Assembly: GCA_963921795.1 (NCBI GenBank)
Contig: OY997658.1
Location: forward strand, 54,204,346 to 54,268,345
Reading direction: 5' to 3'
Length of the DNA: 64,000 bases
DNA from: Nannobrachium achirus
Lineage: Eukaryota > Chordata > Actinopteri > Myctophiformes > Myctophidae
This document shows positions 5,588 through 61,120 of the stretch, piece by piece. The translations under genes were made by a program, and so were the position numbers. Below the pieces are notes generated by a model that was not told the origin of the DNA, searched no databases, and saw nothing but the letters and a program-made list of their open reading frames with translations. Positions within the stretch are counted from its first letter, which is position 1, and each line of letters begins with the position of its first letter.

Positions 5588-6017
5588 CAGGGGTCTTCAA
5601 CGTTTTCAGGCCAAGGACCCCTTAGCTGAGAGAGAGATGAAGCAGGGACCCCCACTACGTATTGTATTAAGTTGTGTTGCATATTAAAAATGTTCATAGA
5701 TTTCTTAGACAGCTTAGGCTAGACTTGTTTGACAGCACTATCATCAGTGTAGGTTGTTGGACTAATGTGCATTTTTAGACATCGAACAACTCTTATTTCC
5801 CCTTTACAACAAAGTTTCTTTGCCAAGAATAGCCGATCTACAAGCTCACAGCGCCTCGCAGCGCGAGGCGTTGTGAGCTTGTAGATTGGCTATGTTTGGC
5901 TAATGTTCCACACAGAATAGGATAGGGTTCAAGTGGTTTGGGTAGAAAAATAAAGTTCCTATCACACAAAGATTTGGAGGACCCCCTGTAGTAAGGACCC
6001 CCTGTTGAAGACCCCTG
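5588..6017. mobile_element. hAT-like MITE (GGGGTCTTCAACG family), complete
   Basis: Ends CAGGGGTCTTCAACG and GTTGAAGACCCCTG are inverted repeats. Flanks GTCTAGAG (5580-5587) and CTCTAGAG (6018-6025) match at 7 of 8 bases, the size expected of hAT insertion. No transposase. A full copy of the recurrent hairpin sits at 5829-5893. Confidence 0.85.
5829..5893. repeat. Recurrent hairpin module, copy in a GGGGTCTTCAACG MITE
   Basis: Arms ATAGCCGATCTACAAGCTCAC and GTGAGCTTGTAGATTGGCTAT with a GCGCCTCGCA/GCGCGAGGCG tip. Pairing extends into the flanks (GCCAAGA / GTTTGGC). Confidence 0.9.
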
Positions 6018-6704
6018 CTCTAGAGCCTTACCAGTCAGTGTAAACTGCAACAGTATAGCCCACAAATATCTTGCCCAAGATCAAGCAGCAGCTAATGCAC
6101 TCACACATGTAAAAGTAGGACTCATCTCAGCCTCAGTCTGTAGGAAAACGGGGACCATGGAAATATTTGTACTCGTATCAAAAGCACCAACAGAAATAGA
6201 AGCCATCATCGAAGTCCCAGAATCTGCTTTAACCTCTGCCTTAAATAATAGCCTGTTCCCTTCTCTGCGAACAAGCAATTTTCTCCTGAGTTTCCAGGGG
6301 AAGATGAGCTAAATACTTTTTTTTTTTTTTTTTTTTTTTTTGGGCTTACAGGCTGCTGTTGCCCCTCCTACCACACCAAGATTCCACAGACTCCAACACA
6401 ACACTTGAAATCCACTTTTAAAAACAAAGACAAAATCCAGCATATGCAGAAAATTATACAACACAACATGATCAATGCTTTAAGCACCAGACCCTGATGA
6501 GAGCAGTGAACTTTGGTGTAATGAATGGCTCAATGCAGCTACAGTATAAGGAGGTGGCAGGTGGGATGGCCAGTAACTGTTAGAGAGACACAGGAGAGAA
6601 GAGGAGACAAGAAAAAAAGCACAACATACAGCCATATCATTCATTCATTCATTCATTAACACATCACTCTAAGGTTCACTATTTCCCTGTCTGAAGTAGT
6701 GAAA
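6018..6704. other. Quiet stretch with homopolymer and ATTC repeat
   Basis: A T run at 6319-6340 and a short (ATTC)n at 6637-6656. No gene seen. Confidence 0.5.
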
Positions 6705-6843
6705 ATAGCCAATCTACAAGCTCACAACACGGTGAGAAGCGACATGTTGTGAGCTTGTGGATCTGCTATTTTCACTAGTTTGGGTCCCGGGCAAACGTCT
6801 AATTTCTCTTTTGGGTCTCGAGCTGAAAAGATTGGGAACCACT
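6705..6843. mobile_element. Hairpin module plus right end of a hAT-like MITE
   Basis: Hairpin at 6705-6769 (ATAGCCAATCTACAAGC ... GCTTGTGGATCTGCTAT, arms extended by GTGAAA/TTTCAC), followed by sequence ending GATTGGGAACCACTG at 6843, a typical hAT-type terminus. The left terminus was not found. Confidence 0.65.
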
Positions 6844-7217
6844 GATTTAAGTGAATCTAGATCTAGATGTAGTACAGAAAGAGCTAGTCGATTGTTGGCT
6901 CTTGTAAAATCACACCCTTAACCTCGTTAATGAAGTGACTCTGACTTCTTTTAATGCCCCACATTGACGCGTCAGTCCATGGGATAAAACACCACCTGTG
7001 CCTGGGACATAATTAAAACGTCGCCCTCTGCATGTCTCCCGTGTAAAATAATAAATATGCTAAAGAGCTGTTTCTCCCTCTCCCCCTATTTCCCTGCTCT
7101 CCAGAAGTCAACGTCTATTTATGTGTTGTGTTTATGGCGAGCCTTGACAACTAATAACTTTCAGAGGCAGTCTCTCACGGAAGTGTGTGTGCGTGCATGC
7201 GTGCATGCGTGCGTGGT
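6844..7217. other. Quiet stretch
   Basis: No feature beyond a short TGCG-rich lead-in (7184-7216) to the GT array. Confidence 0.5.
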
Positions 7218-7353
7218 TGTGTGTGTGTGTGTGTGTGTGTGTGTGTGTGTGTGTGTGTGTGTGTGTGTGTGTGTGTGTGTGTGTGTGTGTGTGTGTGTGT
7301 GTGTGTGTGTGTGTGTGTGTGTGTGTGTGTGTGTGTGTGTGTGTGTGTGTGTG
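7218..7353. repeat. (GT)n microsatellite, about 68 units
   Basis: Uninterrupted GT dinucleotides. Cys/Val and Thr/His reading frames across it are artefacts of the repeat. Confidence 0.98.
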
Positions 7354-7819
7354 CATGAGTACGTGTAGGGTGGGGGGGATATAGCTAATCTGCACCAGCA
7401 GATTGGCCGAGCCATATGCTCTTTGATTATTGGGGGTGACGTGCAAGCAGGAACGCTTGTCAGCCCGCCACCGTCGTGTTATCTGAAACCCGAGACATGG
7501 CAGGGTCAGGGCGCGCACGCCCGTTGCCCTGACACATGCTAATGTGACCGCCTGATCAAGTATGCACGGAGACGTCCTCACAGGGCTCCTACAAGCAGCA
7601 CTTGGCGGATGAGAGCGCAGGGCGTGATTCCAAGGAAATTATGGGGAGCGGTCATTTTCCATTAACGTCGATGCTAAATGAGGAGCAGCCCCGTGGGAGA
7701 GCCGTGTCTGGTTGTGTTCGAAACTTTTTCTCGTCGGGTTTGACTTTTAAGAGGGAACATCAACGGCATAACCTCACTGAACCACTTAATCCCTAAATAA
7801 TAATTTACTTTGTTGTGTG
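7354..7819. other. Quiet, non-repetitive-looking stretch
   Basis: No terminal repeats or credible ORF. It could hold conserved non-coding sequence, but that cannot be judged without alignment. Confidence 0.4.
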
Positions 7820-7912
7820 ACAGATATACAAGGTTGTAACGCATTGTGAGGTTGTAGATCGTCTATTTCCTCTATGTATGTATGTATGTATGTATGTATG
7901 TATGTATATATA
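7820..7912. repeat. Degenerate hairpin module followed by (ATGT)n/(AT)n
   Basis: ACAGATATACAAGGTTGTAACG and CATTGTGAGGTTGTAGATCGTCTATT are recognisable but eroded arms of the recurrent hairpin (7820-7867). A tetranucleotide ATGT array follows at 7872-7906. Confidence 0.55.
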
Positions 7913-59126: not shown

Positions 59127-59460
59127 ACTGGAACGCCCTACCTCAGGAACTGCTTTTAACTTCTGAAAGGAGAATCACTTCTGAAAACCTAACTCTACGG
59201 TAAAGGCTTTCGCTTAGATCACTTGATTATTGTTTTTTATTGTTTTATTCATTGCTTAATGATTTAATTATTGTTTATTTTACCATCTGTTTTTAAATTG
59301 AATTGCTTCAGCGTAAACGTAAAAAAGAAAACAATATTACGCAGAATCGTTCTTGGTGTACTGTTTTTTTTTTATTGCCTCTGCAAAGCACTTTGTAAGC
59401 TTGCTTCGAAATGCGCTTTATAAATAAAGATTATTATTAAGTTAAATATATCATTATAAT
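59127..59460 (+). mobile_element. 3' end of an L2-like LINE
   Basis: TGGAACGCCCTACCTCAGGA encodes the WNALP-type end of an L2 reverse transcriptase ORF. It is followed by a 3'UTR ending GCACTTTGTAAGC...TGCGCTTTATAAATAAAG and ATT repeats. Strongly 5' truncated. Confidence 0.65.
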
Positions 59461-59499
59461 TAGGAGTAGTAGTAGTAGTAGGAGTTGTATTATTATTAC

Positions 59500-59595
59500 A
59501 CGAGAACATGCACCCAGCAGCCCCTGTGGGAATCGAACCCAGAACCTTCTACCTGTGAGGTGACAGTGCTACCGACTGTGCCACCGTGCCCCATT
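59500..59595 (-). mobile_element. tRNA-like SINE head fragment
   Basis: Minus strand: GGGGCACGGTGGCACAGTCGG...CTGTCACCTCACAGG...GGGTTCGATTCCCAC; A- and B-box positions as in fish tRNA-derived SINEs. Confidence 0.7.
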
Positions 59596-60532
59596 GTTGT
59601 TGAGTAGTGTTGAGCAAAGTAACGTTCATAGTAGGTGGGAATTGTGAATTCTGACGGTATTGCTGCACTCTGCCAGTCAGTTTTTTATAGCTACTGTAAC
59701 AACTGGTGCCTCGAATGGAGGAACATTCTAATTGCTCCTCTCCTGTATTGTCAAAACAAGGCGAGGCTTACCTAGTTCTGTACCTGTGCAAGAGTGTTGT
59801 GTCAGTGCTGAAGTGTGGAGTGTGTTGTAGCATGTGTACATTCCACTAGCAAAACAAAACTGACATCAGATCATCATAAGCTTAAAAAACAAAACAAACT
59901 AAAAAAAAGTGTAATACGTGTATGCAGCAACAAAATATATCCACCGGAGGAACTTTTGTGTATGAATAATAAGACAATGCTACCATAGCTAAAACTGTTT
60001 ACTGTTGATATGCAGCAATCTGACAAAGCTTTCAAAGCTTTGGCTGGCAGAATAAGATGTGTGAATAAAATGAATAGATAATACTAGCAAGAAGTTAACA
60101 TTTTCAATAGAAAATGCTCCAGAAAATGTTTTCTTATTTTGTTTTCATGGCATGGCTACCGGAGCCAATCCGTGGGTCTCTCTGTGAGTATATTCGTCTC
60201 TGAGGTTGTCTGGGTTATTCTCGCAAACCGCTGGACTAACTAGCGCAACATTTCTTGTGCACGCTGCCAGTAGGCAAAGGAAGTGATATTTAACTTTAAA
60301 TTCCTCATGGACATCAATGACGATCTGATCAGGCAAGGAATCTTGCCCACATAAGGGGTCATTCTCACAGCATTGATAACTGACGTCACAGGCTGGCCAC
60401 ATGATGTCCCAGAACCACATGGAAGCCAAGACGTTATTAGTCTTGTACTCGTGGCCAAATGGCTGGCAAGCCGAATATTCCACGTGTTGAGTGATTATTG
60501 AAAAATAACCGATGATTCAGATGAGAAAAACA
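59596..60532. other. Quiet stretch
   Basis: No supported feature. The 112-codon minus-strand ORF at 60145-60483 has no recognisable domain or exon signals. Confidence 0.45.
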
Positions 60533-60540
60533 CTGTATAG

Positions 60541-61120
60541 CAAGGGTCTTCAACGGGGGGTCCTCAGAGTTACTACAAGGGTCCACATGAGTGGAAAAAG
60601 CAGCACACCAGAATGAGAATACAAGACGGGCTCAGATATTAAGTTCCATTTTATTCTGAACGCCAACGCGTTTCGGCAGAGAAGGCTTCACGCCGAAACG
60701 CGTTAGCGTTCAGAATAAAATGGAACTTAATATCTTAGCCCGTCTTGTATTCTCATTCTGGTGTGCTGCTTTTTCCACTCATGTGGACCCATGTATTCAG
60801 TTGTACCTAGAGCTAAGCACCCACTGCCCAAATCAGTGGCAGCAATCAGAGGAAGCGCACCTGTTCTTGTCTCCTGAGTTACTACAAGGGGTCCTCCAAA
60901 TATTTGTGTGATAGAAACATTTTTATATTAACAACCCAACCCTAGTGTCCATATTCTGAGAACTTTAGCCAAAAATAGCAGATACAAGCTCACAACACCT
61001 CGTGCTGCGAGGTGTTGTCAAGCGATATGGAAAACTATATGGAATCTATGAAAGACTTGTGGTTTGCTTCATCTTCTCTCAACTCAGGGGTTCTTGGCCT
61101 GAAAACGTTGAAGACCCATG
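60541..61120. mobile_element. hAT-like MITE (GGTCTTCAACG family, reverse) carrying a nested insertion
   Basis: CAAGGGTCTTCAACG...CGTTGAAGACCCATG ends; flanks CTGTATAG (60533-60540) and CTGTACAG (61121-61128) match at 7 of 8. A truncated hairpin module is at 60975-61020. Interrupted at 60582-60875. Confidence 0.85.
60582..60875. mobile_element. Retro-type insertion containing a 200-bp palindrome
   Basis: Bracketed by GAGTTACTACAAGGG at 60567-60581 and 60876-60890 (15-bp duplication). Inverted arms meet at AGAGAAGGCTTCAC, each ending GCCGAAACGCGTT. This motif with GAAGGC in front resembles the hammerhead-ribozyme region of Penelope-like element ends, but the CTGATGA box is not intact, so the family is tentative. 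Confidence 0.55.

Follow-up and report, generated by a model that had tools for sequence, protein, structure and literature searches.

A paired hairpin under several transposon termini in the genome of Nannobrachium achirus

How does one short hairpin come to lie inside repeats whose termini differ? The question is raised by a stretch of 64,000 nucleotides (nt) of the Nannobrachium achirus genome (GenBank assembly GCA_963921795.1, 1.66 Gb; contig OY997658.1), here called the window, with positions counted along the whole stretch. An earlier note on this DNA described a hairpin module common to at least five different families of miniature inverted-repeat transposable elements (MITEs) and took it to be a passenger transferred among non-autonomous transposons, or a structure retained because it folds. 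Our analysis makes it rather probable that the module forms the stem-loop in the middle of small DNA transposons, themselves non-autonomous and nested in hAT MITEs, and that its fold is favoured in the lineages that spread. Families are referred to below by F numbers, sampled loci by L numbers and assembly sequences by C numbers.

The hairpin was found to be real and very common. A covariance model built from 14 copies (3 rows from the window, 10 from the genomic stretches described below) matched all nine claimed two-armed sites, at 5829, 6705, 9354, 24298, 31578, 42142, 47742, 52618 and 54138, with E values from 8e-24 to 0.008; the copies at 24298, 5829 and 6705 were rows of the model and match by construction, and the weakest site was the 32-bp module at 42142 (E 0.0079). 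The letters at all 15 coordinates named by the note were read directly, and the eroded or truncated copies were recovered by an arm search as single or eroded arms at 1384, 7866, 31823, 46610, 52491 and 60973. This search covered the window, eight loci from the first genome matches on C1, and one 10-kb stretch from each of C1-C20, always at base 10,000,001 (twenty stretches in all). It gave 193 arm matches, grouped as 63 hairpins and 67 single arms, after which the overlapping loci L003 and L005 were excluded from counts. In the window and the twenty stretches together (256,720 non-N bases, raw score of at least 14) there were 137 arms, compared with none in five Markov-1 controls, and the covariance model matched 56 distinct places in the stretches, or 65 with the window; the 10 stretch copies among its rows likewise match by construction. 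RNA folding of five hairpins of the window and four from other places gave z-scores of -5.3 to -16.6. A search of the assembly found the exact 20-mer of the module 21,099 + 20,817 times and its reversed control 0 times. By extrapolation the genome holds 400,000-500,000 hairpin copies, about one per 4 kb. Hairpins of the CATGC/GCATG form numbered 9,332 genome-wide and long-tip hairpins 1,218, the latter counted over a gap range of 25-45 bases that leaves the normal 23-base tip outside. No contig of the bacterial and archaeal collections contained a module 20-mer; one contig of a viral collection, which was not read, contained an 18-mer of the module, at chance level by estimate. On C1:2317918-2502979 (G000) the 20-mer recurred at a spacing of mostly about 8 kb, in plus and then in minus orientation, resembling a large inverted tandem array, and L025 2700-2792 contained a small array of module-arm pieces (CTTGTAGATTCTACAAGCTCACAG).

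The 65-bp consensus of the note captured the hairpin and stopped short of the true stem, which extends further through basal pairs. The stem has about 41 pairs and consists of a 31-base arm, ATAGCMGATCTACAAGCTCACAACGC(C/G)(T/G)C(G/A)C, about 8-10 basal pairs and a small loop, most commonly of three bases, with tips that are often shorter or longer. The basal pairs vary by family and are mostly complementary (GTGAAA/TTTCAC, TTTGCC.AAA/TTT.GGCAAA, TAGTGGAA/TTCCACTA). Among the 14 chosen copies seven of 40 stem pairs were invariant, mostly in the core, and over 52 hairpins the most constant arm positions were 8, 11, 14, 16 and 17. The consensuses of five families (F1, F2, F3, F6 and F7) share a C/A disagreement at arm position 6, best explained by one common ancestor of the hairpin. 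With host orientation fixed, the tip loop of F2 was GTT in 17 of 40 copies and its reverse complement AAC in 8, which suggests inversion of the tip alone. One F2 copy (C2:78239655, G000) had a CAAGC-type left arm with one extra A, resembling F1/F4, and might reflect either a module swap or two chance mutations. At L006 about 960-1000 an F10-like arm lies directly beside a short stretch of telomere-like repeats (GGGTTA/GGCTTA and CCCTAA).

Inner elements of at least three types, told apart by their ends, have the module at their middle. One is piggyBac-like, with TTAA followed by CCACTTKAACC or CCCATTTAGG ends; another (F10) has TA plus TCCACRAGTTTCC; the third (F3) has the ends ATCGTYRYTGTCGGG. 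The string TTAACCACTTGAACC is also among the ends of inner cores. A TTAA duplication together with ends starting in CC, as in piggyBac-like MITEs, was found at L009 6928-7123 and L016 8366-8561, both cores with a central hairpin and 188 bp between the TTAAs (which the coordinates include), and at L009 8708-9292, a two-hairpin form with CCCATTTAGG ends. The 188-bp cores, with ends CCACTTGA or CCACTCGA, sit inside CAGGGGTCTTCAAC hAT copies, and no copy of the F1 hAT lacking the core entirely was seen in the sample. Of 24 copies of the TTAA-core end motif (TTAACCACTT/TTAACCCATTTAG), 16 had an arm no more than 150 nt away, a distance within which 12.4% of sample bases lie (P 9e-10); against the same background this held for 11 of 15 F3-core ends and 5 of 5 F10-core ends. 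At all six F10 ends T precedes ATCCAC, as for Tc1/mariner-like MITEs, the A having belonged to the search pattern. In L016 a TA of the two-hairpin block holds an F10 element, at a place through which the L009 and L017 copies run. The F3 core, with ends ATCGTYRYTGTCGGGYRGAAACC, occurred in three different hAT hosts and once without a recognised host (L010 about 7242-7479); its ends, read at 19 places, show at most a 2-bp TA or AT as a putative target duplication. At L038 about 39-538 a TTAA of an F2 copy is interrupted by some 500 bp (ACTTAA/CACTTGG..ATGTG/TTAATG), which seem to be a TTAA element of unrelated origin.

For the outer hosts, inverted ends with target duplications were scanned at 123 module sites and 400 random centres. 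An 8-bp duplication with CAG../TAG.. inverted ends, the signature of hAT elements, was the best match at 6 of 123 module sites versus 1 of 400 random centres, and 8-bp-class matches rose to 8 of 123 when second-ranked matches were counted, most module sites giving no such pair. Pairs of any class were found at 25 of the 123 sites and at 29 random centres; because 28 of the latter were of the TA class, matches of that class were discarded. Elsewhere in the sample, hAT-type hosts were recognised by their ends and 8-bp duplication at L013 6641-7198 (CAGGGACGTGCTGG, ATCCCTAC), L010 658-1105 (CAGGGGTCAGCAAC, GTCTATAC) and L026 2254-2765 (CAGGGGTTCCCAAA, CTCTAATA). For three host types of the earlier note a TTAA-core end was found in the window (at 9258, 31889 and 52578), separated from an arm by 40-96 nt, and its TAGGGATGGGACGATA type is linked to that core by a weak alignment to the F1/F1b flank (z 5.3 for F1b-F6; 3.7 for F1-F6, which is not above the best shuffle). 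No inner core was seen in the window for the CAGTGGTTCTCAACC hAT type. Most of these host types thus appear to be second-order hosts, and the five types are not independent. A module shared by at least five different MITE families is not supported in that form, though the module is present also in the CAGTGGTTCTCAACC hAT and in two inner types with other ends. The idea of a passenger among non-autonomous transposons fits the different termini and duplications and the three inner types, with the amendment that the hairpin moved mainly by nesting.

The note had also suggested looking for host copies with and without the module. One such pair was found in the hAT CAGGGGTTYYCAAACTTTTTGG, where the L016 copy (1295-1771) holds a TTAA core at ..GTTTAA and the L026 copy (2254-2765) runs through the same TTAA. 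The L026 copy bears an F3 core at a different place, so that one host type acquired the module twice, via two different inner elements. TTAA and ATCGT.. (F3) cores are nested in several hAT MITEs with 8-bp duplications; on this reading each hAT would then have copied the composite, so that one hairpin would appear under many termini. The elements that keep the stem paired would be those that amplify, the fold helping its element in cis as extruded DNA or as RNA, and copies would decay without constraint once inserted. The hairpin may first have passed between inner types by repair-mediated capture, or by nesting in which the inner ends were later lost.

Several observations weigh against this account. 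The TTAA end motif was not near an arm in 8 of the 24 sample copies, and for four other TTAA-core ends in the window the closest arm was 265-4,823 nt away. A scan for paired TTAAs whose ends are alike succeeded at no more than 4 of 123 sites, the 188-bp core accounting for two, compared with 26 of 2000 random centres; the case for TTAA rests on the motif at the ends. A TA duplication by itself says little, since 28 of 400 random centres score in that class. The flank alignment of F4 with F8 (z 4.6, each z being the best of several copies and sides) was no better than those of F5-F8 (4.8), F4-F10 (4.5) and F1-F10 (4.4), which makes alignment evidence alone weak. Families F2, F5, F7, F9 and F14 had no recognised inner core, and in the L016 F1b core the TTAA on the right has eroded, leaving the empty site clean on the left junction only. 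A shortened F2 hairpin form was present with identical letters at four places on C2, C3 and C4 and with one base different at a fifth, and a second shortened form occurred five times on C1, three copies being identical and two nearly so; the full stem may not be strictly needed for F2 spread, or the shortened copies may be segmental duplicates.

Two other histories of the module were weighed. All carriers could be divergent descendants of a single hairpin MITE without any transfer, which the note had named as the outcome that would count against its proposal and which we regard as unlikely. It is partly borne out, since F1, F1b, F4, F6 and F8 show the shared TTAA core or traces of it; the F10 and F3 cores, however, have different ends, hAT elements flanked by 8-bp duplications harbour the F3 and TTAA cores, and the CAGTGGTTCTCAACC hAT and the filled and empty pair also tell against it. 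Alternatively the hairpin could itself be the mobile unit, with other MITEs or the apex of a palindrome as its target. That letters just outside the core are complementary yet family-specific, and that the hairpin is near the middle of several hosts, would suit such a unit, which nevertheless seems very improbable. Direct repeats at the hairpin boundary were not seen in the printed copies, and the basal stem reads as the diverged, compensated continuation of the module itself. Genome-wide, F2 copies with exact flanks comprised 622 with 0-30 inserted bases and 4,025 with 45-75; among 100 of the 622 that were listed there was no clean join at the hairpin boundary, the shortest insert being four bases, and nearly all others retained module ends. 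Locally, 17 copies had flanks that nearly or fully adjoin, and 14 of them retained module letters; at window 37300-37420, L028 6640-6720 and L038 2100-2220 these are absent or doubtful and flank is lost too, as in a deletion. Insertion of a bare hairpin into palindromes was accordingly disfavoured for the copies read.

Does the pairing matter? Of the 40 stem pairs compared over the 14 chosen copies, 19 were changed on both sides, compared with a shuffled mean of 11.7, and the compensating changes reported by the note are therefore real across families. For a closer comparison six family consensuses (three of them drawn from three copies each) and 45 resident copies were each scored against the pooled arm. 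The consensuses had 16 compensated to 7 one-sided changes and the residents 5 to 96 (Fisher 7e-11), so that paired changes in the former exceeded those in the latter. F1 and F6 probably inherited their basal trio from a common source; without F6 the ratios were 11:6 and about 5:86, the resident count being approximate (Fisher 1e-7). Equal, unconstrained copies would pair their changes equally within and between families, which these ratios contradict, and selection on pairing in the multiplying lineages would be the best explanation of them.

The chief rival is neutral arm correction, in which repair or replication templates one arm on the other and inheritance with slow homogenisation replaces selection. 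Such correction is known for quasi-palindromes. It has a substantial minority chance of being the explanation and may be partly true alongside selection on pairing. Residents had 5 compensated changes where independent arm mutation predicts 1.8, a slight excess that leaves room for correction; in 40 further F2 copies from the genome listing there were 3 where 1.7 were expected, and frequent correction in resident F2 copies was rejected on that count. At least two rows left out of it show compensated pairs by eye (C1:6283670 and C1:42026711), and the apparently inverted tips of F2 would also suit correction. Resident changes are nevertheless mostly one-sided (96 of 101 cells), and the position-6 disagreement persists in the five family consensuses and in 31 of the 40 F2 copies, 23 of them A/C. 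Diverged F10 copies, which had the longest time for correction, still have 7-8 unpaired of 22 positions. The proposal that the module is retained because it folds gains support from the contrast between consensuses and residents, with arm correction remaining as a rival and a biochemical role only proposed.

Selection on the fold could act on RNA, through a transcript hairpin like a microRNA precursor, with products that either help or counter the element. The stem of about 41 pairs, the small loop and the conserved mismatch would fit such a role, which we consider improbable as the specific form of the explanation. No Rfam family reached its gathering score in the window, and the best match of the hairpin at 24298, the only one examined below threshold, was MIR2600 with 55 bits where 98 are required. 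This match consists mostly of compensated instead of identical pairs and several unrelated microRNA models also score, and identity with an Rfam microRNA was rejected. DNA and RNA roles are inseparable here because a palindrome folds on both strands. In a bolder and more tentative version, which we hold to be possible though clearly not the favoured one, the stem-loop of ~85 bp with its nearly invariant core ..ACAAGCTCACA.. would be a fold-selected passenger domain that moves among hAT, piggyBac-like and TA-target elements and raises their amplification in cis.

Nested MITEs, and MITEs of hAT, TTAA and TA type, are well known. The elements described here resemble hAT, piggyBac, Tc1/mariner and nested MITEs in their short length, inverted ends, matching target duplications, high copy number and nesting, and differ in having one structured centre common to several terminus types. 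The CORE, V and Deu families of short interspersed elements (SINEs) share central domains under different heads and tails; they are alike in the conserved internal module under different ends, whereas the carriers here are DNA transposons and the conservation is largely one of base pairing. Angel of zebrafish is a palindromic MITE, and elements of its kind are likewise fold-back elements of fish genomes; we know of no module shared between terminus types in Angel. Bacterial REPINs have units arranged as inverted pairs and are mobilised by RAYT. REPINs (PMC3116915) are similar in the many copies of short repeated units and differ in being bacterial and without hAT nesting. Module strings of 15-16 bases had no match in the text of open papers, which are part of the literature only, and nothing on point was found there on shared, chimeric, nested or hairpin MITEs of this sort. 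A structured, compensated centre common to inner elements of three end types did not appear among the open papers that these text searches brought up. The features of the window are collected in Table 1.

Table 1. Module copies and their host elements in the window.
Feature	Position	Strand	Method
hAT MITE, terminal inverted repeat (TIR) CAGGGGTCTTCAAC, 8-bp duplication GTCTAGAG/CTCTAGAG, bearing module	5588..6017	+	
Hairpin module, F1 type, 41-bp arms	5819..5903	.	folding, covariance model
Hairpin module; host a further hAT-like remnant with right end GGGAACCACTG	6693..6781	.	covariance model
Eroded hairpin copy	7820..7866	-	read + arm search
TTAA-core end TTAACCACTTGA at 9258 and F1 hairpin 9342-9433, within hAT MITE	9258..9433	+	
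hAT MITE, F2 family, TIR CAGTGGTTCTCAAC, duplication AACTAGCT	24047..24479	+	end/duplication scan
F2 hairpin with compensated CATGC/GCATG change	24286..24374	.	folding, covariance model
hAT MITE CAGGGGCGTC..CACCCCTG, duplication TCTCCATG; internal piggyBac-like end CTAAATGGGTTAA at 31877-31889	31490..31973	+	read directly
Short-tip hairpin, left member of two-hairpin block	31564..31632	.	covariance model
Single arm, remnant of right hairpin of the block of 31564..31632	31805..31825	-	arm search
Minimal hairpin, F5-type left flank	42130..42185	.	covariance model
TAGGGATGGGACGA MITE, duplication CTTGGGCT/GTTGGGCT; one flank aligns to TTAA core	47500..47910	+	
F6 hairpin	47730..47803	.	folding, covariance model
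TTAA-core end TTAACCACTTCAGC at 52578 and hairpin 52606-52681, GTAAAAGTACT-type repeat	52578..52681	+	
Single arm, same GTAAAAGTACT-type repeat as 52578..52681	52491..52514	+	arm search
Diverged hairpin, GTAAAAGTACT-type repeat	54126..54207	.	covariance model
Single arm with partial tip, F1-type flank	60973..61020	+	read + arm search
Lone arm fragment	1365..1384	-	arm search
Lone 15-base arm fragment	46610..46624	+	arm search

The window also contains two long arrays of related 22/44/99/143-bp repeats (14070-17815 and 19877-23458), inverted around about 2 kb, with the repeat letters ACTTGAATTGCAC.. and, on the other strand, GTGCAATTCAAGT... Close to the module-bearing hAT at 31490 is a cadherin exon (31048-31194), whose translation starts with a type II cadherin N-terminus (best PDB match cadherin-7, 6cgs, E 5e-8).

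If the more tentative version holds, the module would be for DNA transposons what the central domains common to several families are for SINEs. The comparison of consensuses with residents separates change in active lineages from decay after insertion and is applicable to any MITE family. If the paired evolution reflects selection, it would offer a handle on why many MITEs have palindromic centres, and would bear on whether the fold of the cargo affects cut-and-paste multiplication.

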